Of a stretch of 64,000 nucleotides of DNA, positions 3,544 through 18,944 are shown piece after piece (within the stretch, counting starts at the first letter, position 1; every line of letters starts with the position of its first letter). The notes beneath the pieces were generated by a model. That model ran no database searches and was not told the DNA's origin. It saw only the letters and a program-made list of their open reading frames with translations. Made by a program: the position numbers and the translations under genes. The stretch covers positions 1 through 64,000 of the forward strand of contig JAJDAD010000092.1 of NCBI GenBank assembly GCA_029262055.1. The letters are read 5' to 3'. This stretch comes from Candidatus Zhuqueibacterota bacterium (lineage in GTDB: Bacteria; Zhuqueibacterota; Zhuqueibacteria; Oceanimicrobiales; Oceanimicrobiaceae).

Positions 3544-4452
3544 ATTAAGACCGCTTTCGTGTTTCCAGGCCAGGGGGCCCAGTTTGTAGGGATGGCCCGT
3601 GACCTTTACGACAGTTCTGACGAGATCAGAAATCTCTACGCGACATCATCCGAAATCCTCGGTTTTGATCTTGCGCAAAGGTGTTTTGAAGGTCCCGAAG
3701 AAGAGCTTAAGCAGACCCGTGTCACACAGCCTGCCATTTTCGTCCACAGCGCTGCGCTCCTTCACTTTTTACGGAACTCTGACCTCAAGCCGGACATGGT
3801 TGCCGGCCATAGTCTTGGCGAGTATTCCGCCCTCTATTGCGCCGGAATTCTCAGCTTTGAACAAGGTCTCGGTCTGGTGAAGGTCCGCGCCGAACTCATG
3901 CAGCAGGCTGGTGAAAAAAATGCCGGCACAATGGCGGCGATCATCGGGCTGGACGATCAAGCTTTGCTCAAGGTCTGTGAAGACGCAAGTACTGCCGGAG
4001 TCGTTGCGGTCGCCAATTTTAACTCACCATCCCAAACCGTCATCTCGGGAGCGGTCGCCGGGGTTGAAAAAGCGATGGAGTTGGCCGCGGAAGCCGGAGC
4101 AAAACGGACGGTGCCACTGGTTGTTGGCGGCGCGTTTCATTCACCGTTGATGGATTATGCAACCGACGGCCTGAAGCAGGCGATCATGCAAGCTGAATTC
4201 GCGCCAGCCAGGGTTCCGGTCTACTCAAATGTTCTTGCCGAACCTCTTGTCGACCTGAACCAGATAAAGGATCTGCTGGTCCGGCAAATGACCAGTCCTG
4301 TGTGCTGGGCTCAAATTGTTGGCAATATGATTCGGGACGGCGCCACTGAGTTTTATGAGATCGGTCCAGGCTCCGTACTGACCGGGCTCCTCAGGCGTAT
4401 CGACCGTAGCGTTACCGGAAAAGCTTTGAACGAATTAGAGAAAGTCATCTGA
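3544..4452 (+). CDS. fabD: malonyl-CoA:ACP transacylase, probable ATT start
   Basis: This enzyme loads malonyl groups onto ACP. GHSLGEYSALYC holds the catalytic serine, GGAFHSPLM the histidine, and the protein opens with the family's AFVFPGQGAQ strand. Reading frame: a stop TAG at 3529-3531 is followed by GAG AAA AGG ACA ATT AAG ACC GCT TTC GTG. The only canonical codon, GTG 3559, falls inside the conserved first strand and lies 24 bases from the AGGAG at 3530-3534. ATT at 3544 is nine bases from that site and gives the normal N-terminus (I/M-KTAFVFPGQG), 302 residues. The family call is certain; the start is inferred. Confidence 0.95.
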   Translation: MKTAFVFPGQGAQFVGMARDLYDSSDEIRNLYATSSEILGFDLAQRCFEGPEEELKQTRVTQPAIFVHSAALLHFLRNSDLKPDMVAGHSLGEYSALYCAGILSFEQGLGLVKVRAELMQQAGEKNAGTMAAIIGLDDQALLKVCEDASTAGVVAVANFNSPSQTVISGAVAGVEKAMELAAEAGAKRTVPLVVGGAFHSPLMDYATDGLKQAIMQAEFAPARVPVYSNVLAEPLVDLNQIKDLLVRQMTSPVCWAQIVGNMIRDGATEFYEIGPGSVLTGLLRRIDRSVTGKALNELEKVI

Positions 4453-4453
4453 A

Positions 4454-5197
4454 ATGCTGCCACTTGAAAACAAGACTGCAATTGTAACAGGCGCTTCCAG
4501 AGGTATTGGCCGGGCCATCGCTTTGAGATTGGCCGGCGAAGGCGCAACATTGGTGGTAACCGCTACTTCCGTGGAGGGTGCGCGCAACACCGCGTCTGCA
4601 ATCGTTGAGGCCGGTGGCAAAGCCCGGGCAGCGGCAGTGAATGTTGCAGAGTTCTCCCAAGTCGATTCTTTGCTGAAAGAGACCAAAGACACTGAAGGCA
4701 GTATTGATATTCTGGTAAACAATGCCGGCATTACGCGGGACAATCTTCTGCTCCGCATGAGTCAGGAACAATGGGACGAGGTTCTTGCCGTCAACCTGAA
4801 AGGGACCTTCAATTGCATTCGTGCTGCCAGCAAGGTCCTGATGAAGCAGCGTGCGGGAAAGATCATAAACATCACTTCTGTGGTCGGTGTTATGGGCAAT
4901 GCAGGTCAGGCCAACTATTGTGCCTCTAAAGCAGGCGTAATAGGGCTGACGAAATCTGTTGCACGGGAATTGGCGCCGCGCAATATTCAAGTAAATGCGG
5001 TGGCGCCCGGTTTCATTGCCACGGATATGACCGCGGACTTGCCGGAGGACGTGAAAGACGGCCTGCTTGGCAGCATTCCTCTCGGGCGGCTTGGCGAGGC
5101 CCGGGATGTTGCAGCCGTCGTTTCTTTTCTGGCCTCCCCGGATTCGGATTACATAACCGGCCAGGTGCTGCATGTAGACGGCGGCATGGCCATGTAG
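4454..5197 (+). CDS. fabG: 3-oxoacyl-ACP reductase
   Basis: A 247-residue short-chain dehydrogenase that reduces beta-ketoacyl-ACP with NADPH. The cofactor loop TGASRGIG lies at residues 12-19, NNAG at 89-92, and the catalytic Ser142, Tyr155 and Lys159 are in ITSVVG and YCASK. The C-terminus HVDGGMAM is typical of FabG. The ATG begins one base after the fabD stop, so the two genes are probably coupled. Confidence 0.97.
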   Translation: MLPLENKTAIVTGASRGIGRAIALRLAGEGATLVVTATSVEGARNTASAIVEAGGKARAAAVNVAEFSQVDSLLKETKDTEGSIDILVNNAGITRDNLLLRMSQEQWDEVLAVNLKGTFNCIRAASKVLMKQRAGKIINITSVVGVMGNAGQANYCASKAGVIGLTKSVARELAPRNIQVNAVAPGFIATDMTADLPEDVKDGLLGSIPLGRLGEARDVAAVVSFLASPDSDYITGQVLHVDGGMAM

Positions 5198-5199
5198 AG

Positions 5200-5229
5200 T
5201 TGAACACGGTTGCTAATTTTTGATAAAGT
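5200..5229 (+). promoter_or_regulatory. possible internal promoter for acpP
   Basis: TTGAAC at 5200-5205 and TAAAGT at 5224-5229 are 18 bp apart in the 73-bp gap before acpP. An extra promoter for acpP would fit the high demand for this carrier protein, but the -10 match is only moderate. Confidence 0.4.
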
Positions 5230-5270
5230 AAAGTAAGGTATCTGTCAGCTAACCTAGGAGGGTAAATTAA

Positions 5271-5513
5271 ATGGCTTTGGAAGACAAAGTTAAAGACATA
5301 ATTGTGGAGCAACTCGGGGTTGACGCCGATGAGATCAAGGAAGGTGCCTCTTTCATCGATGATCTGGGTGCCGATTCCCTGGATACTGTCGAACTGGTAA
5401 TGGCCTTCGAAGAAGAGTTCGAGATTGAAATCCCGGATGAAGACGCCGAAACCATGACCACTGTCGGTGACGCCCTCAAGTACTTGAATGGAAAAGTCGG
5501 CTCGGCTGACTGA
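5271..5513 (+). CDS. acpP: acyl carrier protein
   Basis: An acidic 80-residue protein with the phosphopantetheine attachment motif [13 protein letters not shown]; the serine is residue 36. It carries the growing acyl chain for all the enzymes encoded around it and probably for PlsX. A strong AGGAGGG precedes the ATG, the best ribosome site in the operon. Helix II-III charge pattern and length are typical. Confidence 0.98.
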
Positions 5514-5536
5514 TTCAAACAAAACTACCATCTGCC

Positions 5537-6787
5537 ATGAATGACAAAACTAAACGCGTTGTCGTCACCGGAATGGGTGTGATTTCGCCCGTCGGGAACG
5601 ATCTCACCACTTTCTGGCAGACGCTGCTGGATGGCAAAGGCGGCGTCGCAAGCATCACTAAGTTTGACACTTCCAGCTTTGCAACCCAATTCGCTGCGGA
5701 AGTCAAGGGCTTTGATCCGGAGGATCACATTGACCGCAAGGAAAGCCGGCGTATGGACATATTTACACACTATGCCATCGCCGCCGCAGACGAAGCGGTC
5801 AAGCGCTCCGGTCTCGACTTCGATTCTGAAGCCAAGGACCGCGTTGGCGTGATCACCGGTTCGGGGATTGGCGGTATGACCACGTTTGAGGCCCAGTCGA
5901 AAGCGCTGCTGGAGCGCGGCCCGCGCCGGATTAGCCCGTTTTTTATCCCGATGATGATTCCTGATATTGCCCCCGGCTATATCTCAATTCGATTTGGTCT
6001 AAACGGGCCTAACTTTGCCACTGTATCCGCCTGCGCGTCGAGTTCGCATGCGATCGGCGAAGCCTTCCGGACAATTCAGCGCGGAGGGGCAGACGTCATG
6101 ATCACCGGAGGCTCGGAGGCTGTCATCACCCCCTTGGGGGTCGGTGGTTTTAATGCCATGAAAGCCCTGTCGACCCGGAATGACGCGCCCGAGAAAGCAA
6201 GCCGCCCCTTTGATTCTGACCGGGACGGATTCGTGATGGGCGAAGGTGCCGGCATGCTTGTCCTGGAAAGCCTTGAGCATGCACAGTCCCGCGGTGCTGA
6301 CATTCAATGTGAAATAGTCGGTGTCGGCTACAGTGCGGACGCGCATCACATTACTGCGCCCGCACCAAACGGCGAAGGCGCGGTTCTGTCCATGCGCAAT
6401 GCGCTTGCCCACGCAGAAATGCAGATCGACGAGGTGGACTATATCAATGCGCATGGTACTTCGACCCCGCACGGCGATGTTGCAGAGACAAATGCCGTGA
6501 AGCATGTTTTCGGCGAGCACGCAAAGAAAATGAACGTGAGTTCTACCAAGTCCATGATCGGGCACTTGCTCGGAGCCTCGGGTGGGGTTGAGTTTATAAC
6601 TGCGGCTATGTCCGTCCGGCATGATATCGTGCATCCGACCATCAATCTGGAAAATCAGGATCCGGCCTGCGACCTAAACTACACGGCGAACAAAGCTCAA
6701 GAAAGAGTTGTCAAGGCTGCTCTTTCTAACTCGTTTGGTTTCGGTGGACACAATGTTTCAATCGTATTGAAGAAATTTCAAGAGTAG
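5537..6787 (+). CDS. fabF: 3-oxoacyl-ACP synthase II
   Basis: The elongating condensing enzyme, 416 residues. The catalytic Cys166 is in TVSACASSSHAIGEA, with the two histidines in NAHGTSTPHGD and SMIGHLLGASG. GFGGHN near the C-terminus is also typical. It follows acpP after 23 bases and precedes rnc, an acpP-fabF-rnc order common to many phyla. Confidence 0.98.
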   Translation: MNDKTKRVVVTGMGVISPVGNDLTTFWQTLLDGKGGVASITKFDTSSFATQFAAEVKGFDPEDHIDRKESRRMDIFTHYAIAAADEAVKRSGLDFDSEAKDRVGVITGSGIGGMTTFEAQSKALLERGPRRISPFFIPMMIPDIAPGYISIRFGLNGPNFATVSACASSSHAIGEAFRTIQRGGADVMITGGSEAVITPLGVGGFNAMKALSTRNDAPEKASRPFDSDRDGFVMGEGAGMLVLESLEHAQSRGADIQCEIVGVGYSADAHHITAPAPNGEGAVLSMRNALAHAEMQIDEVDYINAHGTSTPHGDVAETNAVKHVFGEHAKKMNVSSTKSMIGHLLGASGGVEFITAAMSVRHDIVHPTINLENQDPACDLNYTANKAQERVVKAALSNSFGFGGHNVSIVLKKFQE

Positions 6788-6817
6788 GTGTCATAAATAG
6801 ATCCTCAACAGCTTCGC

Positions 6818-7570
6818 ATGTTCAGCCAATTTAAACTTCGTATTAAGGATTTCTTTTCACCACCTGAGAACGGTCACCAGATAGATTTTTCCGCTCTTAA
6901 AGAGATGCTCGGCTACGATTTTCAGAGCGAGAGACTCTTTGTGCAGGCGTTCAAGCACCGCTCCTATCTTCCCGTAAACCAGGAACAACGTATCGATTCC
7001 AATGAGCGCCTGGAGCTCTTGGGAGACGCCGTTCTGGGTTTGGTCGTAATTGACTTTTTGTATAAGCGTTACCCCCGCAAGGAAGAGGGTGAACTCACGA
7101 ACATGAAGTCCTTGATCGTGAGTCGTAGAGTGCTGGCAAAAGTCTCCCGCGCACTGCGGCTGGGTGAGTTCTTTTTGCTGAGTGAGTCCGAAGAGAGGGC
7201 AGGCGGCCGGAACCGGGCATCGATCAACTCCGATGCGTTCGAGTCCGTCCTGGGTGCTATTTATCTGGACGGTGGACTAGAAAGCGCCAGGGTTTTTGTC
7301 GAGGAAAAACTGCTGTGCAATTTTGAAGATATTATCCAGGATGAGCTGCACACGAACTTCAAAAGCATGCTGCTTGAATATGCGCAGAGCAAAAACCTGG
7401 GATCACCCTGCTATGCTGTCAAGACGATTGACGGCCCGGACCATCAACGCGTATTCACCATTCAGGTGAAACTGCAAGACGACGTTCTCGGTGCGGGTAC
7501 TGCTAAAAGCAAGAAACGCGCAGAACAACTTGCCGCACAAGAAGCCCTGAAGGGCCTCTACCTGATCTAA
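6818..7570 (+). CDS. rnc: ribonuclease III
   Basis: Double-strand-specific endoribonuclease: an N-terminal RNase III domain with the signature NERLELLGDAVLG (residues about 67-79) and SDAFESVLGAIYLDGG, then a double-stranded RNA-binding domain ending KKRAEQLAAQEALKGL. The ATG at 6818 gives 250 residues but lacks a ribosome site. An in-frame ATA at 6797, right after an in-frame TAA and six bases after AGGTG (6786-6790), would add seven residues and may be the true start. Last gene of the lipid operon; it meets the thiolase gene tail to tail with no spacer and no visible terminator. Confidence 0.96.
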   Translation: MFSQFKLRIKDFFSPPENGHQIDFSALKEMLGYDFQSERLFVQAFKHRSYLPVNQEQRIDSNERLELLGDAVLGLVVIDFLYKRYPRKEEGELTNMKSLIVSRRVLAKVSRALRLGEFFLLSESEERAGGRNRASINSDAFESVLGAIYLDGGLESARVFVEEKLLCNFEDIIQDELHTNFKSMLLEYAQSKNLGSPCYAVKTIDGPDHQRVFTIQVKLQDDVLGAGTAKSKKRAEQLAAQEALKGLYLI

Positions 7571-8833
7571 CTAATCCCCTGCATTTTCCAGCAGCATCGC
7601 CGCCGCCATCGCGCCGGCTGCGCAAATACTCACCAGGCCGTAGCGCGCTCCTCTGCGCTTCAACTCGTTTGCGAGCGTCGTCACGATTCTGGCGCCGGTC
7701 GCTGCAAATGGGTGTCCGACGGCAATGGAACTGCCAAGCGGGTTGAGCCTTACCGGGTCGATCTCACCGATGGCTTGTTCTTTCCACCCATCTTTCCAGG
7801 CCTTTTGGTTGCAAGCGACTTGCCCTCCAAACGCCTCGTGAACTTCGACAATATCTATTTCCGATAATTTGATGCCGGTACGGCGCAGAAGTCTGGGGAC
7901 GGCGACACACGGAGCCATGAGCAAGCCGTCCGATGGGTCGATGGCGGCGTACTCGAAGTCTTTGATGAAAGCCAATGGTGTGCGGCCTTCCTGCTTCGCA
8001 CGCTCTTCGGACATCAGGAGGACAGCAGACGCGCCGTCGGTTAGTGGACTGGAGTTGCCGGCGGTCAGTGTGCCGGCGGAACTTCGGTCGAAGACCGGGC
8101 GCAATGCAGCGAGCTTTTCCAGGGTCGTGTCAGGGCGGATCAGGAGATCACGATCAAGGCCGTCCAGCGGGAAAATCTCCGACGCCAGGCGTCCGTCCTC
8201 TGTTGCTTTGTGCGCATTCTGGTGGCTTCGGTAGGCAATCTCATCCTGTGCTGCACGCGGGATCTGCCATTCTTTGACCATGAGCTCAGTATGTTCGCCC
8301 ATGGAAAGTCCCGTGGATGGTTCTGCGATTGCCGGAGCCTGCGGCTTGAAATGCCCGGGTCTGACTTTCGAAAAGATGCCGATGCGTGCTCCCATTGTTT
8401 TCGCATTTGTAGCGTCCAACAGGATGCGTGCAAAATCTTTCCGGAAAAGAATCGGTGGGTTGGACATGGACTCGGTGCCACCGGCGATCCCTATTGCGGT
8501 GTGGCCTCTGGCGATGGAATCAGAGATGGCGGTGATTGCATGAATGCCGGTGATGCAGTTGTTCGATACCGTGTGTGCCTTTGTTTCTTTCGGCAAGGGT
8601 GTGTTAAAGACCACTTCACGCGCGAGGTTAGGAATCTCCGGATTGACGATAACCGTACCGTAAACCAACTCATCAACAGCAGCAGGTGATATTTCAGTGG
8701 TCTGCAGGAGTCCTTTTACTGCATGGACTCCGAGGTCAAGTGCCGAGTGATTTTTGAATCTGGTTCCGGCTTTCACAAACGGCGTACGGACGCCGCTGAT
8801 TACTGCAACTCGCGCCGGATTTTCCCGTGTCAT
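7571..8833 (-). CDS. thiolase family acetyl-CoA acyltransferase (FadI/FadA-like)
   Basis: A 420-residue thiolase that cleaves or forms beta-ketoacyl-CoA. The acyl-accepting Cys93 is in VSNNCITGIHA and His374 in VGHPFAATGAR. The second catalytic cysteine, C404, is present, but it sits in CAAGAMA where most thiolases have C-x-G-G-G, so the last loop is altered. A good AAGGAG precedes the ATG. No partner beta-oxidation genes are nearby. It follows the small membrane protein gene on the same strand by 40 bases. The exact substrate is unknown. Confidence 0.9.
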   Translation of the reverse strand: MTRENPARVAVISGVRTPFVKAGTRFKNHSALDLGVHAVKGLLQTTEISPAAVDELVYGTVIVNPEIPNLAREVVFNTPLPKETKAHTVSNNCITGIHAITAISDSIARGHTAIGIAGGTESMSNPPILFRKDFARILLDATNAKTMGARIGIFSKVRPGHFKPQAPAIAEPSTGLSMGEHTELMVKEWQIPRAAQDEIAYRSHQNAHKATEDGRLASEIFPLDGLDRDLLIRPDTTLEKLAALRPVFDRSSAGTLTAGNSSPLTDGASAVLLMSEERAKQEGRTPLAFIKDFEYAAIDPSDGLLMAPCVAVPRLLRRTGIKLSEIDIVEVHEAFGGQVACNQKAWKDGWKEQAIGEIDPVRLNPLGSSIAVGHPFAATGARIVTTLANELKRRGARYGLVSICAAGAMAAAMLLENAGD

Positions 8834-8873
8834 AGTAACTTCTCCTTTCAGTGGTCGTTTGCCCGCCCTGCCG

Positions 8874-9083
8874 CTAACAGCCTAACAGGCCACGAGTAGC
8901 AAAGTAGGGCAGAACTAGATAGAGTAGAGAGTCGCGCACCAAATAGAAGACGAACACAAGTACTACCACCCGCCATCCTTTTTGTCTGATAAATTCTTTC
9001 AGGCCATGTTCGCGCCAAATCGCAACCCACTCGCGGATGAACGCAGGTTTCAGAAACCGGCTCAGTCTCTCTTTGAGTGCTAT
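8874..9083 (-). CDS. small single-span membrane protein, probable ATA start
   Basis: A 69-residue reading frame that I do not recognise by name. It has a basic amphipathic N-terminal half (KERLSRFLKPAFIREW, then EFIRQKGWR) and one hydrophobic span, VVVLVFVFYLVRDSLLYLVL (residues about 39-58), with an arginine-aspartate pair inside it. An in-frame TAA is followed by CGA CGA ATC AAC TCC GGA GGC ATC ATA GCA, so no ATG, GTG or TTG precedes the conserved-looking part. GGAGG ends four bases before the ATA at 9083. It lies between a nuclease and a thiolase gene. The protein-like composition and the ribosome site support it; the function is unknown. Confidence 0.65.
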   Translation of the reverse strand: MALKERLSRFLKPAFIREWVAIWREHGLKEFIRQKGWRVVVLVFVFYLVRDSLLYLVLPYFATRGLLGC

Positions 9084-9137
9084 GATGCCTCCGGAGTTGA
9101 TTCGTCGTTAGAAGTCGTGCTGGCTGGTCGCTGCCGC

Positions 9138-9491
9138 TCAGTATTCCTGGTAGCGGGCATGACCGGCTTCCACCAGCAGGTCGTTTATATTGATGTACTT
9201 GTCGCCATCGTCACACCAGATTTCAGCAATGTAGCGCCCAAATTTGCCCTTCTTGTCTTTCAAGGTTTCGAGAATGACGTCCTTGTCCTGAATTCTGCTG
9301 CGCAGAAAATCGCGGGACGCCAGGCCTGCCTCGCGCTCGCTACCCCGCAATTCAGGCGCGTTGATGCGCGACAGGCGCAGTTTTTCATTCCTAATCCAGG
9401 TGCCGAGACCAAGGTCGATATCGACACGAACCGTGTCTCCATCGTACACACTGATGACTTTGGCGCGGTAGTGATATAATTGACTGTCCAT
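9138..9491 (-). CDS. thermonuclease (SNase-like) family nuclease
   Basis: A 117-residue single-domain SNase protein. YDGDTVRVDID carries the calcium-binding aspartate, LRLSRINAPEL the arginine and glutamate equivalent to Arg35 and Glu43 of staphylococcal nuclease, and GKFGRYIAE the Arg87 equivalent. The calcium ligand Asp40 is replaced by Asn (INAPE), a change common in bacterial relatives. There is no signal peptide, so it is predicted to be cytoplasmic. GGGAGGTGAGCAATG gives a clear start. Confidence 0.85.
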   Translation of the reverse strand: MDSQLYHYRAKVISVYDGDTVRVDIDLGLGTWIRNEKLRLSRINAPELRGSEREAGLASRDFLRSRIQDKDVILETLKDKKGKFGRYIAEIWCDDGDKYININDLLVEAGHARYQEY

Positions 9492-9520
9492 TGCTCACCT
9501 CCCTGCGGCTTGACCTTCAG

Positions 9521-9548
9521 AATATAGGCGATTCCGTACCAAATGCAA
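9521..9548 (-). promoter_or_regulatory. promoter of the nuclease - small protein - thiolase unit
   Basis: Read on the minus strand: TTGCAT (9548-9543), 16 bp, TATATT (9526-9521). This lies 30 bp before the ribosome site and ATG of the nuclease gene. Confidence 0.5.
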
Positions 9549-9665
9549 TCCATTTTTGCCTGTGCCCGCAATCACTTTGCGGTTGCGTTCGGTTGGCATT
9601 ATCCATAAGTTTTCGGACACCACTGCTATAAACTTCTGTAAAGTCCATAAGCAAGGGGAAACCGG

Positions 9666-11363
9666 ATGACTGTCAAAATATCCACTCTCTGTCTGTGTAC
9701 GTTTTTGCTGATCGGCTGCAGTTCGGAGCGGTACGCCGACATCATTTTGTATAATGGAAAAATCTACACTGTCGATGGTCGAATGTCGGAAGCACAAGCA
9801 GTTGCAGTCTCGAGCGGGAGGTTCCTGGCTGTCGGAAACGACGCACAAGTGCGCTCCGTTGCCGGACCCGACACCCGCTTTCTCAATCTCGAAGGGAGAA
9901 CGGTTTTTCCCGGTTTCATCGATAGCCACTATCACTTTATTGGCGTGGGCCGACGTGAGTACTATCTCAATCTGGACGGGACCAGGTCTATGCGCGATTT
10001 CTTGTCGAGAGTGAAAACGGAAGTCGACAGCAAGGGCGGCGGCGAGTGGATTGTCGGAAGAGGTTGGATAGAGGAAGACTGGCCGTCAAAGCGATTCCCG
10101 ACCTGCCAGGATTTGGACAAAATTGCTCCTGACAATCCGGTGATTCTGACGCGTGCGGATGGCCATGCGGTTGTGGTCAACAGCAAAGCTCTGATGATGG
10201 CCGGAATAGACCGGCATACAGCCGACCCGCAGGGTGGGGAAATCCTGAAAGATGCGCAAGGCAACTGTAACGGATTGCTTCTGGATAAGGCCATTGGCCT
10301 GGTTACACAACACGTGCCGTCCGACACGAGCACTGAAATGACCAGAAGATATGCCCGCAAAGCGGATGAGCTGGCGCTGGCCTATGGCATGACCCAGGTG
10401 CACGACACGGGAACAAATTTCCGAACAGTTGATGTTTACAAGGAAATGTATGCCGAGAATGACTTGAAGATTAGAATCCGCGCCTACATCCGTGGACCCG
10501 GAAAAGACACGGACCTGCTCCTGGAGCAAGGACCGGAAATCGGTCTGTTCAATGACAAACTTAGCGTGCGCGGCATCAAAATCACCCAGGATGGCGCTTT
10601 GGGGTCGCGCGGCGCGGCTTTGCTGCAACCTTACAGCGATGCCGAGACCAGCGGCTTCCTGATTTTTAAGGACGAACAAGTCTACCCGACCATAAAAAAA
10701 GCTCTGGAGAATGGTGTCCAGATGGCAATCCATGCTATTGGGGATTCCACCAATCGCAATGTGCTGAATCTGTTTGAACGTGCCTTTGCTGAGGTGCCCG
10801 CAAGCCGTAGAGTCGACCAGGATCCGCGGTTTCGGATTGAGCATGCTCAGATCGTGCACCCGGATGATCGGCCCCGCTTCAGACAATTGGGCGTCATTCC
10901 TAGCATGCAGCCTAGCCACGCCATCGGTGACTTGCATTTTGCGGGCCGTCGGCTCGGGATGGATCGCATGCAGGAAGGCTATGCCTGGCGCGCATTTATC
11001 GACCAGGGCAACTACATCCCGGCCGGCTCCGATGCCCCGGTCGAGGAGGGTAACCCGATGATCGAGTTTTACGCGGCCGTGGTCCGGAAAGACACAACCG
11101 GCTTCAACGGGGAAGGTTGGTTCCCACAGTATCGCATGACGCGCGAAGAAGCGTTGCAGGCGCTTACCATCTGGGGTGCACGGGCTGCATTTTCGGAAGA
11201 CTTAACCGGCTCGATTGAGGTTGGAAAATATGCCGATCTTGTTGTATTGGATCGGGATCTGATGACCGCTCCCGAGGATAGACTCTTTGATACAGAGGTT
11301 CTGCTGACCATGGTAGGCGGTGAAGTAGTCCATGAGAGCAGTGATTTGCGCGACTCTTTTTGA
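9666..11363 (+). CDS. amidohydrolase family lipoprotein (YtcJ-like)
   Basis: A 565-residue member of the Amidohydro_3 (YtcJ) family of metal-dependent hydrolases. The N-terminus has a lipobox, FLLIGC with Cys18, so it is probably anchored in the envelope. Family motifs are VFPGFIDSHYHF (metal-binding His-x-His), IHAIGDSTN, RIEHAQIV and PAGSDAPVEEGNP. The substrate is not predictable; related enzymes act on N-substituted formamides, amides or cyclic imides. It is followed by a two-component pair after 27 bases, apparently in the same transcript. Confidence 0.85.
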   Translation: MTVKISTLCLCTFLLIGCSSERYADIILYNGKIYTVDGRMSEAQAVAVSSGRFLAVGNDAQVRSVAGPDTRFLNLEGRTVFPGFIDSHYHFIGVGRREYYLNLDGTRSMRDFLSRVKTEVDSKGGGEWIVGRGWIEEDWPSKRFPTCQDLDKIAPDNPVILTRADGHAVVVNSKALMMAGIDRHTADPQGGEILKDAQGNCNGLLLDKAIGLVTQHVPSDTSTEMTRRYARKADELALAYGMTQVHDTGTNFRTVDVYKEMYAENDLKIRIRAYIRGPGKDTDLLLEQGPEIGLFNDKLSVRGIKITQDGALGSRGAALLQPYSDAETSGFLIFKDEQVYPTIKKALENGVQMAIHAIGDSTNRNVLNLFERAFAEVPASRRVDQDPRFRIEHAQIVHPDDRPRFRQLGVIPSMQPSHAIGDLHFAGRRLGMDRMQEGYAWRAFIDQGNYIPAGSDAPVEEGNPMIEFYAAVVRKDTTGFNGEGWFPQYRMTREEALQALTIWGARAAFSEDLTGSIEVGKYADLVVLDRDLMTAPEDRLFDTEVLLTMVGGEVVHESSDLRDSF

Positions 11364-11390
11364 GACTTGACATTCGTTTCAGGACAAAGC

Positions 11391-12878
11391 ATGACACAGA
11401 CTACGTCAAGAAAACTACACTTAAGCCTCCGGCAGAAAGCCATTCTCGGGATTGGTTTTACATATTTTGCGATCGTGGCTGTCTTTGCATTCTTTGCCTT
11501 CAAGAACGAGCAGAAAATCGTTAAGGACGAAATGACCAACAGCTCTATGGGCTGTACCAGGCTGTTTGCCAAGATGGTCACCGAACCCTTTCTAAATGAT
11601 GATATTGAAGCCATCAAGATGCACGTGGCTCAGGCAGGGCCCATGGCAAAACTCAGTCACGGGCGAAATGTCTCTTACGTTATCATCCAAAACGATGCCG
11701 GCGAAGTGATAGCGAGTAGCGGTGGCGCGCAAATCGAGACCCTGTTGTCGACCGAACTCAATCGTAACGCCTTTAATGCTGAGTCCGAAATGATTCAGCA
11801 ATCCGGGTCGGTCGTTGATGTCGCCATCCCAATTTTTTCAGGTGGGATCAAGAAAGGAGTGGTGCGTCTGGGGATTTCCACCAAGGAGATGGAAGCAAAG
11901 ATCTTAAATAGCCGGCGCTGGGCTTTGCAGTTTATGCTGGGTGCAATATTCATCGGGACGGTATTGGGCCTCTTTGTCGATCATAAGGTCAAGCGCAACC
12001 TGCAAAATTTGACCGAAACAGCCACTCGAATGGCTGGTGGTGACATGAGCCAGCGCGTAGATATCGAGACCGGGGATGAAATGGAGTCCTTTGGCGACGC
12101 ATTCAATGAGATGGCCGACCAGCTTCAGGAAACGCACGAGCACCTCGAACAAAAAGTTGCGGAAAGAACCCGGGAACTTCGTGAGTCACAGGCACAACTT
12201 GTTCATCAGGAGAAGATGGCCAGTCTCGGTGTTTTGGCTGCAGGCCTGGCGCACGAGATCGGCAATCCGCTAACAGCCATATCGTCCGTGGTGCAGATGC
12301 TGCAACGGAAGTCCAAAGATGGGAAATTCAGCGAGCAGATGCAGCTTGTAAATGAAAACATCAGCCGAATCTCAAAAACGGTTCGCGAACTGGTGGATTT
12401 TTCGCGACCGGTTAAGTCTGAACGGCGCACTATCCAGATCAACGATCTGATTCAAAAAGCGTTGGGTATTCTCAAGTATGATAATCGGGCCAAAGACCTC
12501 AAGATCGTAACAACTCTCGACAGCGAACTGCCTGCGATCACTATGATTGAAGACCAACTCTTGCAGGTTTTCATCAACTTGATCCTGAACGCTTTTGACG
12601 CAATGGAGAGTGGTGGCCGCCTGACGATTACCTCTGCCAGCGCGGGTCAATTTGTGGTGATTTCGATTCAGGATACCGGCAGCGGAATCCCACCGGAACT
12701 GAAAGGTAAGGTTTTTGAGCCGTTCTTTTCGACCAAGCCGGTAGGAAAAGGGAGCGGTTTGGGCCTGTCGGTTAGCTATGGCATCGTTCAGAATCTGGGT
12801 GGAAAAATCGAAGTTGAAAGTACGGATAGCACGGGAACTCAGTTCACAATATCGTTGCCTTTGAAAACCACGGAGTAA
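11391..12878 (+). CDS. membrane sensor histidine kinase, NtrB-like
   Basis: A 495-residue kinase: membrane span at about 17-38, a periplasmic sensor domain of about 140 residues (40-178), a second span at about 179-196, HAMP to about 250, a coiled linker, then HisKA with phospho-acceptor His288 in LAAGLAHEIGNPLTAISS and a HATPase domain with NLILNAFDAM, DTGSGIPPE and GKGSGLGLS. ATG 11391 is chosen over the in-frame TTG 11367 because TCAGGA lies six bases before it. It is four bases from its response regulator. The ligand sensed is unknown. Confidence 0.93.
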   Translation: MTQTTSRKLHLSLRQKAILGIGFTYFAIVAVFAFFAFKNEQKIVKDEMTNSSMGCTRLFAKMVTEPFLNDDIEAIKMHVAQAGPMAKLSHGRNVSYVIIQNDAGEVIASSGGAQIETLLSTELNRNAFNAESEMIQQSGSVVDVAIPIFSGGIKKGVVRLGISTKEMEAKILNSRRWALQFMLGAIFIGTVLGLFVDHKVKRNLQNLTETATRMAGGDMSQRVDIETGDEMESFGDAFNEMADQLQETHEHLEQKVAERTRELRESQAQLVHQEKMASLGVLAAGLAHEIGNPLTAISSVVQMLQRKSKDGKFSEQMQLVNENISRISKTVRELVDFSRPVKSERRTIQINDLIQKALGILKYDNRAKDLKIVTTLDSELPAITMIEDQLLQVFINLILNAFDAMESGGRLTITSASAGQFVVISIQDTGSGIPPELKGKVFEPFFSTKPVGKGSGLGLSVSYGIVQNLGGKIEVESTDSTGTQFTISLPLKTTE

Positions 12879-12882
12879 GTTT

Positions 12883-14241
12883 GTGCCCGCAAAACTGTTG
12901 GTGATCGACGATGAAAAAGCCATTCGGGAAACACTATCGGAATTACTGACTGAAGAAGGCTACGTTTGCGAGGTAGCCGCGGATGGCGAGACCGCGCTTC
13001 AGAGAATTTCGCAGAAGACCTTCGACCTTGTTGTTTCTGACCTTCGGCTGCCCGGAATCCAGGGACTGGACGTGCTGCAGGAAACCCTGAAAATAAGTCC
13101 GCAGACAGTCGTTGTCATCATCACGGCCTACGCCTCAGTTGAAACCGCTGTGGAAGCCCTCACAAAAGGTGCGACCGATTACCTGGTCAAGCCGTTGATT
13201 CTGGATGATGTTCTTTTCAAGATCAAGCATCTTCTGAAATACCGGCAGCTTGCCATCGAAAATCAGATCTTGCGGCAGGAAGTAGAGGAAAAATACGACT
13301 TCAGCAAAATCATCGGTGACAGCCGGAAGATGCAGGATGTCTTTGAGTTGATCCGGAAAATGGCGCCGACGAACAGCAACGTCCTGATTCTTGGCGAGAG
13401 TGGTACTGGCAAGGAGCTGGTCGCGCGTGCTTTACATTTCAACGGACCTCGCAAGGCAAATAGATTTCTGCCGGTTAATTGCAGCGCGATTTCTGAACAA
13501 CTTGTGGAAAGCGAATTTTTCGGGCACAAGAAAGGCGCCTTCACAGGAGCAATTCAAGATAAGAACGGTTTTTTTAAGTCTGCTGATAAGGGCACTCTGT
13601 TTCTCGACGAGATCGGTGAAGTCCCCTTGCACCTGCAATCGAAGTTGTTGCGTGCCATCCAGGAGAAGGAGATCTACCCGGTTGGCAGCGAGCGGCCGAT
13701 CCAGGTCGATGTCAGGATAATCGCGGCCTCCAATCGCAACCTCGAAGATGAGATGACAAAGGGGAATTTCCGCGAAGATTTGTTTTACCGGCTGGACGTG
13801 GCCGAAATCAAGCTGCCTCCGCTCCGTGAACGGCCGGATGATATTCCTCTTTTGATAAAGCATTTCATCAAAGTTCACAACGTCGAGCTCGGCAAGCAAG
13901 TCAAAGGTGTTGACAATGAGACCATGAAAATGCTGCTCAACCGTGCCTGGAAAGGAAACATTCGCGAACTGGAAAATATGATCGAACGGGCTTTGATTCT
14001 TTGTGAAAGTGAGTTTATCTCTGCGAGAGACCTTCCGGCGGATTTTACCTCCGGGAAGACGGCATTTGAAGTAGAAGATGATTTGAAAAAAGCGATGAAA
14101 AACTATGAGCGTGTCCATATTGTGAGCAGCTTAAACAAGGCCGGCAATAACAAGCGCCGCACTGCCAGAATGCTGGGCATCAGCGAATCCTCTCTTTACA
14201 GAAAAATGGAAGAGCTCGAGATTCCGTTTGGGCAACAATAA
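12883..14241 (+). CDS. sigma54-dependent response regulator, NtrC family
   Basis: A 452-residue activator: receiver domain (acidic pair D9-D10, phospho-acceptor Asp53, Thr81, Lys103), AAA+ domain with Walker A GESGTGKE at 171-178, the sigma54-contacting GAFTGA loop at 218-223 and Walker B LFLDEIGE at 239-246, and a C-terminal Fis-type helix-turn-helix (NNKRRTARMLGISESSLYRK). It therefore activates sigma54 promoters in response to the adjoining kinase. The start is GTG. A perfect inverted repeat follows the stop codon, and a possible sigma54 promoter lies 150 bp downstream, so the neighbouring cupredoxin locus may be its target. Confidence 0.95.
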   Translation: MPAKLLVIDDEKAIRETLSELLTEEGYVCEVAADGETALQRISQKTFDLVVSDLRLPGIQGLDVLQETLKISPQTVVVIITAYASVETAVEALTKGATDYLVKPLILDDVLFKIKHLLKYRQLAIENQILRQEVEEKYDFSKIIGDSRKMQDVFELIRKMAPTNSNVLILGESGTGKELVARALHFNGPRKANRFLPVNCSAISEQLVESEFFGHKKGAFTGAIQDKNGFFKSADKGTLFLDEIGEVPLHLQSKLLRAIQEKEIYPVGSERPIQVDVRIIAASNRNLEDEMTKGNFREDLFYRLDVAEIKLPPLRERPDDIPLLIKHFIKVHNVELGKQVKGVDNETMKMLLNRAWKGNIRELENMIERALILCESEFISARDLPADFTSGKTAFEVEDDLKKAMKNYERVHIVSSLNKAGNNKRRTARMLGISESSLYRKMEELEIPFGQQ

Positions 14242-14261
14242 GTCTCCCAATAATGGGAGAC
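14242..14261. repeat. perfect inverted repeat directly after the ntrC-like gene
   Basis: GTCTCCCA-ATAA-TGGGAGAC begins at the base after the TAA stop. It has no T-run on either strand, so it is a poor terminator. The size (two 8-bp arms, 4-bp centre) suits an operator, and its place about 150 bp upstream of a sigma54-like promoter is where an activator of the NtrC family would bind. Function is inferred. Confidence 0.55.
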
Positions 14262-14344
14262 AGTCTCACAGATTTAGGAGATCACATGGAGCAAATGACC
14301 TAACAGGCACAAAGCAGCACCAAAGAAAGTCTGGTATAAATATC

Positions 14345-14377
14345 AACCACTTAGGGTGTCCTAAGTGGTTTTTTTTT
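14345..14377 (+). terminator. rho-independent terminator after the two-component genes
   Basis: AACCACTTAGG (14345-14355), a GTGT loop, CCTAAGTGGTT (14360-14370), then an uninterrupted T-run. The 11-bp stem is perfect. It insulates the kinase-regulator transcript from the locus starting at 14444. Confidence 0.93.
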
Positions 14378-14392
14378 GCCCAGTCCCAAGGG

Positions 14393-14408
14393 TGGTACGC
14401 AAGTTGAA
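14393..14408 (+). promoter_or_regulatory. possible sigma54 promoter of the cupredoxin locus
   Basis: TGGTAC (14393-14398), five bases, TTGAA (14404-14408) resembles TGGCAC-N5-TTGCA with correct spacing, but the C of the -12 GC is an A. It lies 15 bp after the terminator and 36 bp before the ATG at 14444. No sigma70 promoter was seen in the same gap, and a sigma54 activator is encoded just upstream. Confidence 0.4.
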
Positions 14409-14443
14409 GGGGGTGAGGCAACAACTTAAACCCTGGAGGACCC

Positions 14444-15112
14444 ATGAAAGATATTTTCAAACTAAACACAGGTTTTATGACCATCGCGCTTCTAAGTGTT
14501 GTGATGGCTCTTAACACACAAATTTTTGCCAACGGCGGCGGTAAGATTCTCGGGAAGGTGAAATTAGCCGGCGCAACCGGTAAAGCCCTGACCAAACCGG
14601 AACTGCTGGTTTCAGCCAAAGGCGGCGTTCAGAATGTTGTGCTGACAATCGCGGGCATCGAAGGCGATTTCAAAGCAGATCCCATCACCATCGACCAGAA
14701 AAACAAAGCATACGTTCCCAGAATTTCCGTAAGCATGGTCGGAAGCGAGCTGACCTTTTTGAACAGCGACGCGATTTTGCACAATGTTCACGGCTATAGC
14801 GGCGTGGAGACGTTGTACAATTTTGCCATGCCTAAGTTCTTGAAGAAGAAAGCGACAAAGCTGGAAGAATCCGGCTTGAAGAAGATTCGCTGTGATGTGC
14901 ACCAGGAGATGATAGCCTACGTTGTGGTTACGGACAACCCACACTACTCTATCACAAATGAGGCCGGCTTATTCCAAATCGATGGCATTCCAGCAGGAAC
15001 ATACAAGATCAAAGCCTGGCATGAGAAGCTCGGCAGTCTCGAACAGGAAGTCACAATAACCAATGGTGAAAAAAGCGCTGTGATTTTTGAGTTTTCACCT
15101 GAAGGGAAATGA
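14444..15112 (+). CDS. exported cupredoxin-like protein with a carboxypeptidase-regulatory-like domain
   Basis: A 222-residue exported protein (hydrophobic leader, cleavage near residue 29 before NGGGK). A type-1 copper site can be read directly: His113 in LHNVHGY, then Cys150, His153 and Met156 in CDVHQEM. The tail VTDNPHYSITNEAGLFQIDGIPAGTYKIKAWHEKLG is in pieces typical of a small beta-sandwich found in carboxypeptidase regulatory-like domains. The family is known near respiratory or methylamine-type genes as a periplasmic copper protein. CTGGAGGA precedes the ATG. It is first in a three-gene row with an outer-membrane protein and a large exported protein; electron transfer or copper handling is plausible, not shown. 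Confidence 0.8.
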   Translation: MKDIFKLNTGFMTIALLSVVMALNTQIFANGGGKILGKVKLAGATGKALTKPELLVSAKGGVQNVVLTIAGIEGDFKADPITIDQKNKAYVPRISVSMVGSELTFLNSDAILHNVHGYSGVETLYNFAMPKFLKKKATKLEESGLKKIRCDVHQEMIAYVVVTDNPHYSITNEAGLFQIDGIPAGTYKIKAWHEKLGSLEQEVTITNGEKSAVIFEFSPEGK

Positions 15113-15138
15113 CTTACGAATCATGAGGAGAGTTTAAG

Positions 15139-16443
15139 ATGAATCCTATAAAATCAATTTGCATGTTCGGCGTTTCATTGAGTGTGTTTGCGTTTTTGTC
15201 GGTGGCTCCGGTTCAGGCTCAGGATACAGAAGACGTTGATGATCTCGAGAAGGAGTTTGCAGAATTTGAAAACCAGAAGCCCGCATTGCCGGATTTTACC
15301 GGAGATGAGTACGATTTCCTGGAGTACGGTGTCGACCAGGACTACATGAAGATGGAACGCTATCGCACCAAGAATCAAATCCTGACCTTTATTCCGCCGC
15401 TGTACCAGCCTGCTTTTGTCGGACATGGCTATGTCCTGCCTCCCAACACCTGGCGGGCGGCCCTGCACGCACATTCGCTTCGAGTCAAGGCCAGTGACTT
15501 CTTCAAACACGGCGACCAAGACTTGGTTCACCAAGATCACAGCATCGAGCGGTTGAAATATGATTTCGATTTTTTCTATGGCCTGGATTACGACATGACG
15601 GTACGAGTCAATGTGCCGATTTGGTCGACCCGTTCTCTCGGTTCGGTCCATCCCGCTGGTGTGGCGCCGATCAACCTTCATGTCGAGGGCAACAGCACAA
15701 AGATTGGCGACGTTTCGGTTTTTCTGAAGCGCAAATTCTTCGACCAGGGCAACCGCTGGCTGAATTTAGCAGGCGTGGTTGGCGCCATTCTGCCGACCGG
15801 TTCGGACAGCGAGAAGTTTGATGATCGACTCATTTTGACCAATCCGGCTAATCCTAATGGTGTGGTCGCTTTCAATGGCGGCCCATTCCAGCGTTTCTCA
15901 GATGACGGTAACCTGCCTACGACACTGCAACCCGGAATCGGAAGATTTGGCGGGATCCTGGGTCTGATGGGGACAAAGCAATTGGGGCGCAGCGCTTTTC
16001 ATTTCGGTACGCTTGCGCGTTTCAACGACCTGACTGCCGGTGACAATGATATCGAATACGGCAACGAGGTTTTCTATTTCGCTTCTTATGTCAAGCCTGT
16101 TGGGAGTGACAGAGTGAGCGTTGAACTGGCGTTCAACGGAAAATGGAAAGGCGACGACAAGTATCCCGGCATTTTCACGCATCCGATGACTGCTGACCCT
16201 TCAGGGTTTGGCGCACCGATTATGACAGTGAATCCCGAGACCGGAGAAATGGCGGTTCAGATGTTTACCACACCTCGTCCGGCTTTCAGTGGGGGCTGGA
16301 TTGGTTTTCTGAGTCCGAGCGTCGTTTTGAATCCTTATTCGCAGCTTCGGTTGGAGTTCTCGACCATGATTCGCGTGATCAAGCCGGACCTCGGTCCTGC
16401 GCCCAAGCTGATGTTCAGGGGCGGTATTACAACGACCTTTTAA
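15139..16443 (+). CDS. outer-membrane beta-barrel protein (phenol MetA-pathway/transporter-like)
   Basis: A 434-residue exported protein: signal peptide ending APVQAQ (residue about 27), an acidic stretch, then alternating aromatic strands such as YDFDFFYGLDYDMTVRVNVP, KIGDVSVFLKRKF and VSVELAFNGKW, closing in GGITTTF with the C-terminal phenylalanine expected of outer-membrane barrels. The strand pattern and the LPTGSDS turn resemble the putative 'MetA-pathway of phenol degradation' barrels. TGAGGAGAG precedes the ATG. It is 26 bp after the cupredoxin gene. Substrate unknown. Confidence 0.7.
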   Translation: MNPIKSICMFGVSLSVFAFLSVAPVQAQDTEDVDDLEKEFAEFENQKPALPDFTGDEYDFLEYGVDQDYMKMERYRTKNQILTFIPPLYQPAFVGHGYVLPPNTWRAALHAHSLRVKASDFFKHGDQDLVHQDHSIERLKYDFDFFYGLDYDMTVRVNVPIWSTRSLGSVHPAGVAPINLHVEGNSTKIGDVSVFLKRKFFDQGNRWLNLAGVVGAILPTGSDSEKFDDRLILTNPANPNGVVAFNGGPFQRFSDDGNLPTTLQPGIGRFGGILGLMGTKQLGRSAFHFGTLARFNDLTAGDNDIEYGNEVFYFASYVKPVGSDRVSVELAFNGKWKGDDKYPGIFTHPMTADPSGFGAPIMTVNPETGEMAVQMFTTPRPAFSGGWIGFLSPSVVLNPYSQLRLEFSTMIRVIKPDLGPAPKLMFRGGITTTF

Positions 16444-16498
16444 AGGGCGAACCAACCTAGCCGCAGAGAAAATGAATTCCGCAATTGAGGAGAAAACC

Positions 16499-18496
16499 AT
16501 GTCGAAGAAAGCGAAGATTTCAATCGCCCTGACCGCTGTGATGCTGATGCTAGTAAGTGTCGGGACATCATTGGCGAGTGCACAAGAGTTGAGCGATTTC
16601 GAGAGTAGGAGAAGTGACATTTACAGCTCTAGCCAAAGAGCGTACACGCAATACAAAAAACCGATTGAAGCCAAAGTTGTTGACCGCCGTTTTGTTCCCA
16701 GGGAGGCGATGTTCATGGCCAACCAGAGCATGCTGTCGGGGACCTTTTTCTTTGAAGACGCAGTGGAGGCTGGTTTACCGGTCGTCAATGACAAGGATTT
16801 CTTTTATATGACGTCGGTAGAGGCTTATTGGTATTCGCGCTACAATCTGTCGATTTTACTAGGCAAAAGCCGGATGGGCGTGCACCTGGTACACGGGCCT
16901 TACCTGACCTACAAAGCGTTGAAACAAAAGGACGAAGTCTTCTACAATCGCGACCGGGCGGAGCGCGAACTCGCCAACCGCGAAGTACTTCTGGGTCAAG
17001 TTATCCCGATGTACCTGGCGCGCACGGGTTTTCCACGCCGGTTTGAAGACGCCTCTCCAATCATGCTTGAATTTGCCTCCGGCGATCCAGTTCTCCCCAG
17101 GTCAGTCGATACCAACGACGACTTCGAAGGTGGCAATGGCCAGCCTGATTTTGAAGATTCCTATTTGACCCTCAGATGGAACGCCAATAAGATTGACAAA
17201 AGCATCGACATTGGAGGTGTCGGACAGACATTACTCAAGCAGGCGTTGTGGATGGAGTATTTCTTCACTCAAAATCACGACAACGGTCGCTTGCTTGGCA
17301 ATGATGCCGAAGAGGGGTTTCGCGGCGCTATGCTCAACCTGATGTCAGTTTCCAAAATGATGATGCTGAAATCAGCTCTATTTTATGACGGCAACAAGCT
17401 GACCGGCATTAACCCGGTCAATTACAATCCGGACGAAAAACTGTTGTACTTGCCGCACCGTCTCGGCGTGCGTTTGATTCAGCCCGGCGACATTCCGCCG
17501 CGACCGGAGTGGTTTTCGGTGAAAGACAAGTCCAGCCAGTTGTTTGACCAGGCCTCCATGCTGTGGGCCACCTCCGAATATTTCTACTTTTCCGATCCCA
17601 ATGTGGAGGACAATTGGAACAACGTGTTCGGAGAGGACACACCATACGATGGCTCGATCATGGAACAGCAATTTGCTACTGCTTTATCCAGCGGTCTTTC
17701 GAACGTATTGCTGAAAAATATCGAGAAGATGCACTGGGACGAAGCCAATGGCTCTTTTGTTTCTCAATGGCTGCCAAAGACGGGACAGGGTAGCAAAGTC
17801 AATCTCCTTGATGCCGGCACGGCGATGCTCGCGCTAGCCAACTACAGTCGCCATTTGGAGTATGATTCTGCTTTGCACGCAAAGGCGCAACGGTTGTTGG
17901 GAGCGCAGGCTGATTTTCTGGTCGATAGACTACAGAATAGCGACGGGTCTTTTCCGGACGGTTACGACTTTAGCGGGCAGCGGGCCCTTGGTCAGGAAAA
18001 GACTCTGACATCACAGGGAATGGCAATTCAAGGCTTGATTCACGCGTACAAGGAGCTGAAGAATGACAAGTATTTGCGGGCAGCCCTGAAGGCGTACCGT
18101 TTCATGAATGAAAAACTGTGGCATGCCGGTGTTGGCATTTATCGTTCCTCGGTCGGGGCAACTGAGTCTGTTTACACGCCGATAACGTTTGGCGCAGTTT
18201 ACGGCGCAATGCGGGCGGTCATACTGCAGACCAAGGATATGAAAGAAGTGGAACGGTTCAAACAACTCTTTGTGCAGGCGGTCAATCGCAGCGGCATTAT
18301 GCTGGCCGAAGAGGTCGACACCGGTGAAAAAGACCCGACGCAAGTCGATGGTGATGGTGACGGAATTCCACAGTTTCAGTACGCCAAAGATGGCAAACGA
18401 GGCGTGGCGGCGGTCTTCGCTTCCAAAGTTCTGATCAAGACTCCGGCGGAAGCAGCGATTAGTACAGCTGCGGTTGGACTGCTTGAGCGAGATTAG
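16499..18496 (+). CDS. large exported alpha-helical protein of unknown function
   Basis: A 665-residue protein with a signal peptide (ISIALTAVMLMLVSVGTS, cleaved after ASAQ). I do not recognise the family. The C-terminal half has spaced helix pairs and turns such as NSDGSFPDGYDFSGQ, LTSQGMAIQGLIHAYKEL and LRAALKAYRFMNEKLWHAG that recall an (alpha/alpha) toroid as in six-hairpin glycosidases or cyclases. DGDGDGIPQ near residue 625 looks like a calcium loop. GAGGAGAAAACC precedes the ATG at 16499, preferred to the upstream ATG at 16472. It closes the three-gene locus and may act with the barrel protein. Confidence 0.65.
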   Translation: MSKKAKISIALTAVMLMLVSVGTSLASAQELSDFESRRSDIYSSSQRAYTQYKKPIEAKVVDRRFVPREAMFMANQSMLSGTFFFEDAVEAGLPVVNDKDFFYMTSVEAYWYSRYNLSILLGKSRMGVHLVHGPYLTYKALKQKDEVFYNRDRAERELANREVLLGQVIPMYLARTGFPRRFEDASPIMLEFASGDPVLPRSVDTNDDFEGGNGQPDFEDSYLTLRWNANKIDKSIDIGGVGQTLLKQALWMEYFFTQNHDNGRLLGNDAEEGFRGAMLNLMSVSKMMMLKSALFYDGNKLTGINPVNYNPDEKLLYLPHRLGVRLIQPGDIPPRPEWFSVKDKSSQLFDQASMLWATSEYFYFSDPNVEDNWNNVFGEDTPYDGSIMEQQFATALSSGLSNVLLKNIEKMHWDEANGSFVSQWLPKTGQGSKVNLLDAGTAMLALANYSRHLEYDSALHAKAQRLLGAQADFLVDRLQNSDGSFPDGYDFSGQRALGQEKTLTSQGMAIQGLIHAYKELKNDKYLRAALKAYRFMNEKLWHAGVGIYRSSVGATESVYTPITFGAVYGAMRAVILQTKDMKEVERFKQLFVQAVNRSGIMLAEEVDTGEKDPTQVDGDGDGIPQFQYAKDGKRGVAAVFASKVLIKTPAEAAISTAAVGLLERD

Positions 18497-18944
18497 CCTT
18501 TGCTTTGATCCTTTTTGCGAGAGCTATCTTGGTAAACAGGCGGGGCAATTTGTCTCGCCTGTTTACTTTGAAGAGGGCTTGCTGCAACATGCGGCCAATT
18601 CACCAGTCTATGACGAACACGGGCTCTGAGTGTTGGCCTTGATTCTAGTGGAACCTGAAGTCTCCGTATCCCGGCGGCGTGCCGCGGCCGGGATTTTCGT
18701 ATCTGAAGACGACCGGGGAAACAGGCGATTAGTCTCGCCTCTGGGCCGACGTTGCAATTTCCTCGCCGCGCTTATCGTTCGCAGGTCGACTTTGCATGTT
18801 TTTGAGCTTGTATCTGAATAGGTACTTCGCTACATTTATGGCCCTATCCGCAACTACTTCTTTGTGCGTGAATCGAATTCTTTTGTGGCGATGGAATATA
18901 GATTTAGACCATACTGTTATCAGTCTTGAGTACATAGGTTATCC
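18497..18944. other. 448-bp non-coding gap with two hairpins
   Basis: No convincing gene is present. An 11-bp perfect inverted repeat, GTAAACAGGCG (18532-18542) and CGCCTGTTTAC (18556-18566), follows the 16499 gene. A second one, ATCCCGGC (18668-18675) and GCCGGGAT (18687-18694), is followed by TTTTCG. Parts of the first hairpin recur: AAACAGGCG again at 18719-18727 and TCTCGCCT again at 18733-18740. The last 100 bp before the PorV-like gene are AT-rich and probably hold its promoter, which I could not define. Confidence 0.6.
18532..18566 (+). terminator. hairpin after the three-gene secreted locus, possible terminator
   Basis: An 11-bp perfect stem with a 13-base loop, 36 bp after the stop codon. 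Only TTTG follows the stem, so termination would be weak; the second hairpin at 18668-18697, which has a TTTT tail, may back it up. Confidence 0.45.

Follow-up and report, generated by a model that had tools for sequence, protein, structure and literature searches.

The window, the whole stretch of 64,000 nucleotides analysed here, encodes three consecutive exported proteins on its plus strand. The first gene (14444-15112) specifies an amicyanin-like type-1 cupredoxin with a carboxypeptidase-regulatory-like domain as fusion partner, the second (15139-16443) a 434-residue probable outer-membrane beta-barrel, and the third (16499-18496) a 665-residue protein of an uncharacterised family. We use "big" as a working name for this last protein and its relatives, and refer to the three genes as the trio. 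Gaps of 26 and 55 bp separate cupredoxin from barrel and barrel from big, respectively, and a purine-rich ribosome site lies immediately 5' of each gene. No credible terminator was found between the trio genes in the window sequence, and a single operon is the best reading of this arrangement. Directly after it, an inverted repeat with 17-nt arms and no T-run (18532-18566, strand-neutral) possibly marks the 3' end of the operon.

Upstream on the same strand lie genes for an amidohydrolase (9666-11363), a sensor histidine kinase (11367-12878) and an NtrC-type response regulator (12883-14241). An earlier, sequence-only reading of this DNA had listed a two-component pair, a palindrome, a terminator, a sigma54-like element, a copper protein, a barrel and a large exported protein, all of which are present in the window sequence. 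We found no paper on this gene set. Elsewhere in the window, a short thermonuclease-like ORF, judged by eye only, occupies the minus strand between a thiolase gene and the amidohydrolase gene (9138-9491), and a 6S RNA (Rfam RF00013; 61772-61960) scores barely above the gathering threshold.

Proteins of the trio

The cupredoxin domain carries the ligand set of type-1 (blue) copper proteins, His...Cys-x2-His-x2-Met. Its four residues, H113, C150, H153 and M156, are those named in the sequence-only reading and are invariant in the cupredoxins of four relatives. The best matches of the domain are to amicyanin (PDB, NCBIfam), and pseudoazurin also matches. The C-x2-H-x2-M loop is shared with amicyanin (MauC), but the trio protein scores only 24.3 bits against the amicyanin equivalog TIGR02657 (cut-off 110.2), far under the value for a true amicyanin, and differs from MauC in its fused carboxypeptidase-regulatory-like domain. 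No mau genes were recognised around the operon among the window ORFs searched with Pfam. A related cupredoxin on Sinorhizobium pSymA (L076:7953-10402) adjoins SCO, a metallophosphoesterase and a SoxA/TsdA-type cytochrome.

The 434-residue protein has a signal peptide and a C-terminal Phe, both read directly from its sequence. Amphipathicity of its strands is weak (z of 1.5 in the window protein and 2.9 in its relative). Nothing credible matched in Pfam, at E up to 10, or in the PDB, and an AlphaFold2 model from the window sequence and its closest counterpart was too poor for use (pLDDT 28). The earlier assignment as a barrel is thus supported by signal peptide, terminal Phe and a weak strand signal, and gains nothing from Pfam or structure prediction; we regard the protein as a probable outer-membrane beta-barrel.

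For big, no Pfam or NCBIfam family reaches its cut-off with the cupredoxin-linked forms. The alignment of the family holds some 50-odd invariant positions, including W227, W251, W356 and D619-x-D621, as well as three invariant histidines, H129, H320 and H412. Profiles of the family match cellobiose 2-epimerase (5e-11 for the first profile, 4e-9 for a wider one), GH76 mannanase and glucuronyl C5-epimerase, each via helical hairpins, single ones in the case of cellobiose 2-epimerase and GH76. All these matches to toroid enzymes are short and confined to helical hairpins at about residues 430-560. The toroid-like helices described earlier are therefore supported for this part of the C-terminal half, and the rest of the 665 residues lacks such support. 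Here too, the AlphaFold2 model from two sequences was too poor for use (pLDDT 32).

Relatives of the trio in Bacteroidota

On a contig of a Saprospiraceae MAG (L008), cupredoxin, barrel and big occur in the same order, with identities of 52, 71 and 71%, respectively. Synonymous divergence between the two loci has reached saturation or come close to it, and the trio linkage must therefore be old or have moved as a block. For the cupredoxin, a dN of 0.41 and a dS of 3.2 indicate purifying selection; barrel and big show dN values of 0.21 and 0.22 with saturated dS. Downstream of the L008 trio lies a c-type cytochrome, class-I-type and diheme-type. The second heme domain of this cytochrome (L008:7007-8143) is in another frame, which reflects either two genes or a frameshift, from assembly or true.

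Three further loci, namely L048 from the same MAG, L049 (G465) and L089 (G1149), encode big followed by cupredoxin, without the barrel. In L048 and L049 the pair is followed by a diheme cytochrome c that carries a membrane helix at its C-terminus; in L089 the contig ends after the pair. In the tree, the cupredoxin-linked members of big form one clade (support 100/98), and the T9SS-type members form another.

These loci support the claim that the genes form one envelope system: the trio is found in the same order in a second phylum, and big and cupredoxin are paired at three more loci. Under the check proposed earlier, co-occurrence of the three genes, the grouping holds up, although the barrel is present at just two of the five cupredoxin-linked loci, those of the window and L008. 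Taken together, these findings show the trio to be a genuine exported unit that has been conserved.

Control region

The kinase combines sCache_3_2, HAMP, HisKA and HATPase domains (Pfam) in a ZraS/AtoS-like layout, and its sensor is an extracytoplasmic single-Cache domain. The regulator contains the three parts of an NtrC-type sigma54 activator: a receiver (Response_reg, D53), an AAA+ domain with the GAFTGA motif (Sigma54_activat, KKGAFTGA) and a Fis-type helix-turn-helix (HTH_8). The label NtrBC, which the pair had been given, is loose for this sensor, since NtrB senses in the cytosol and ZraS and AtoS sense outside it.

The perfect palindrome reported earlier is the dyad GTCTCCCA-ATAA-TGGGAGAC (14242-14261, strand-neutral; 8-bp arms, N4 spacer), the sole match in the 5.7 Mb genome at up to two mismatches. 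A second, imperfect dyad that the earlier reading did not contain lies 21 bp further on (14263-14282, strand-neutral; 3 mismatches). Its quality was matched or beaten in 7 of 20,000 shuffles of the 180 bp following the first dyad. A spacing of 21 bp amounts to two helical turns, as expected for a bound pair of NtrC-type activator dimers. The response regulator probably uses the perfect dyad as its upstream activator site. The intrinsic terminator of the kinase-regulator unit was likewise found again (14345-14370, plus strand), with an 11-bp stem and a T-run.

About 120 bp downstream of the dyads, the plus strand bears a sigma54-like -24/-12 element, TGGTACGCAAGTTGA (14393-14407). Written as TGGTACG-N4-TTGA, it fits in spacing and in the -24 GG and lacks the -12 C, its final base being A. 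The relaxed pattern has a chance expectation of 0.10 per 64-kb window; measured against a strict TTGC at one mismatch, the element is no better than chance. The rpoN gene is located on the same contig as the trio. At the threshold of the scan, no sigma70-like site was detected on the plus strand between 14100 and 14443.

Because the dyad is unique and has a tandem copy, the putative promoter is near consensus and rpoN is present, sigma54 control of the trio is plausible, for this genome only. The proposal of NtrBC/sigma54 control thus has local support but none from the comparison with relatives. The Saprospiraceae trio has neither the dyads nor the regulator genes nor a sigma54-like site, and no candidate better than four mismatches precedes the L008 or L048 versions. 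L048 and L089 adjoin a gene for a CRP/FNR-type regulator rather than a kinase-regulator pair. Judged by these upstream regions, sigma54 control is not conserved among the relatives.

The CRP/FNR-type regulators (L048:7977-8702 and L089:3475-4233) precede big and share four conserved N-terminal cysteines (CxxC...CxC), which makes them possible iron-sulfur sensors. A second CRP-type gene follows in L048. Upstream of big, L048 also holds a perfect dyad, ACATGACA-TC-TGTCATGT (ACATGACATCTGTCATGT), which is partly kept in L089.

With its periplasmic-sensor kinase, GAFTGA regulator, tandem upstream dyads and sigma54-like promoter, the window arrangement resembles ZraSR and AtoSC. However, the dyad sequence is its own, and we know of no target operon described for systems of this type that is like the trio operon.

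Distribution of the stretch and of the big family

The big gene is absent from seven genomes of the same family, and the kinase has no match in them at E ≤ 1e-60. In six same-family genomes in which the YicC region was read, the genes for a PorV-like protein and YicC are neighbours, and neither the kinase-regulator pair nor the trio is present there; the gene preceding PorV reads as mutS in most of the six. Because these genomes lack the trio, the pair at PorV-YicC and a kinase match, the stretch from kinase to big is accessory to this genome by comparison of gene content, without a compositional sign of recent arrival. GC3 of the trio is 0.57-0.60, against an average of 0.60 over the window, and recent transfer is unsupported by composition. 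Relatives of big occur in 5 of 82 genomes of the phylum. The barrel is found only in the window genome, with no paralogue in 81 genomes of the phylum. This patchy distribution suggests transfer or loss.

Longer forms of big, of about 700-760 residues, are encoded at eleven further Bacteroidota loci and at several in the phylum of the window. The two that were tested, in L009 and L010, end in a T9SS sorting domain. Secreted relatives lie near cytochromes with 16-31 CxxCH motifs (L090, L094), near an NQR operon (L092, L093) and near a type II NADH dehydrogenase, NDH-2 (L071, L092). The L090 region (3737-16185) is unusually heme-rich, with a T9SS-type relative of big among four cytochromes of 23, 16, 31 and 24 CxxCH.

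Beyond these phyla, big is a lipoprotein on a plasmid of Anoxybacillus (Bacillota), and the gene after it specifies a propeller-diheme cytochrome. This cytochrome (L074:12045-14000) is itself a lipoprotein, in which a YVTN beta-propeller is combined with a diheme cytochrome of MauG/RoxA-like type. On Aeromonas plasmids, big stands alone between a mobile element and glgC, with pgi near. Across about twenty big loci, roughly half have a redox gene nearby, a pattern rather than a proven enrichment.

Discussion

The trio recurs in another phylum, cytochromes, NQR and NDH-2 neighbour relatives of big, and the copper ligands are invariant. For these reasons we interpret the trio as an exported redox module, in which big would exchange electrons with the amicyanin-like cupredoxin and the chain would continue to cytochrome c. 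Our confidence in this interpretation is about even, and it is the most economical account. Here, big would act as an extracytoplasmic oxidoreductase, or as an electron acceptor or donor. From the cupredoxin, electrons would go to c-type cytochromes and on into respiration. The part of the barrel would be to position the module at the outer membrane or to let its substrate in. The kinase-regulator pair would probably switch the trio on from the tandem dyads (14242-14282) via the sigma54-type promoter. The order of the genes, the persistence of the trio across phyla, the copper ligands, the repeated linkage of big with cupredoxin and in part with cytochrome, and the dyads can be read from the sequences, whereas the redox activity of big, the direction of the electrons, the role of the barrel and sigma54 control are all inferred.

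The logic of the trio may be compared with that of dehydrogenase-cupredoxin-cytochrome chains. As in the chain of methylamine dehydrogenase, amicyanin and cytochrome c551i, the gene of an exported partner is linked to that of the copper protein, and relatives add a c-type cytochrome gene. Unlike the MauC system, the trio comes without a recognised methylamine dehydrogenase or TTQ. The sequence-only reading had suggested that an external substrate might be processed or taken up in a copper-dependent way; the neighbours of the relatives point instead to electron transfer.

Several observations count against the redox interpretation. No cytochrome adjoins the window operon, and big contains no CxxCH and no flavin, FeS or other recognised cofactor domain. 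The one distant resemblance of big is to carbohydrate-active toroid enzymes, roughly half of its relatives have no obvious redox neighbour, and the putative sigma54 control is not shared by the relatives.

The main rival is that big is an exported carbohydrate-active enzyme, such as an epimerase, glycosidase or lyase with an (alpha/alpha) toroid, whose sugar product the barrel moves in or out, with the cupredoxin as an accessory that, for example, supplies electrons for oxidative sugar cleavage. The hairpin matches described above, a weak GH127 match in one relative, the glgC and pgi neighbours in Aeromonas and the T9SS tails on several relatives, common in secreted enzymes, all speak for it. 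Big indeed shares helical hairpin repeats in its C-terminal half with the toroids of AGE/cellobiose 2-epimerase, GH76 and glucuronyl C5-epimerase. However, the matches span only 40-90 residues of a repeated hairpin and no active site, and the motifs YxYS, GxH, RW, PH, MH and D-x-D-x-D-G-x-P are the family's own. Next to the cupredoxin-linked members, no genes for the use of glycans were noted, whereas redox genes do neighbour relatives of big, and the linkage of cupredoxin and cytochrome would be left without explanation. We consider this reading rather unlikely, though a serious rival.

Copper handling is quite improbable. It would have the cupredoxin and big, with its three invariant histidines, store or traffic copper, the barrel pass it, and the kinase sense periplasmic metal as ZraS/CusS-type kinases do. 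The type-1 ligands, these histidines, the envelope-sensing kinase and an RND transporter (ACR_tran) in L089, about 5 kb off on the opposite strand, would agree with such a role. Yet none of the loci read has a recognisable copper ATPase, CopZ, PcoB or multicopper oxidase beside it, amicyanin-type domains carry electrons in known cases, and the cytochrome neighbours fit poorly.

Least probable, and very unlikely, is an outer-membrane conduit akin to porin-cytochrome complexes (MtrAB, Pcc, Pio/Mto), in which the cupredoxin replaces the periplasmic cytochrome and electrons pass to or from an external acceptor via surface-exposed big: a barrel is encoded next to an exported electron carrier, and relatives of big are T9SS-tailed and in some cases lie among the multiheme cytochromes, but the barrel is restricted to two loci and no homology was found for it, the window operon encodes a copper protein and no CxxCH protein, L008 has only a class-I-type cytochrome, and a single-copper carrier alone cannot span a membrane. 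Cupredoxin clusters expressed by Sideroxydans during oxidation of solid magnetite may offer a parallel in kind, which does not imply homology to the trio (PMC12016527).

Within the preferred interpretation as an exported redox module, a further step would make big a new exported redox enzyme, an (alpha/alpha) toroid with a three-histidine metal site that works, in several phyla, with a cupredoxin, a cytochrome or a multiheme protein. We consider this unlikely, and to our knowledge no role in respiratory electron transfer is known for the toroid fold. If big is redox active, its family would add to extracytoplasmic respiration a component not described before, one that occurs in Bacteroidota, in the phylum of the window, on a Bacillota plasmid and on Aeromonas plasmids. 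With Anoxybacillus and Aeromonas as cultured hosts, big can be tested now. All in all, the trio resembles a module of respiration type, located at the cell surface and so far unstudied.
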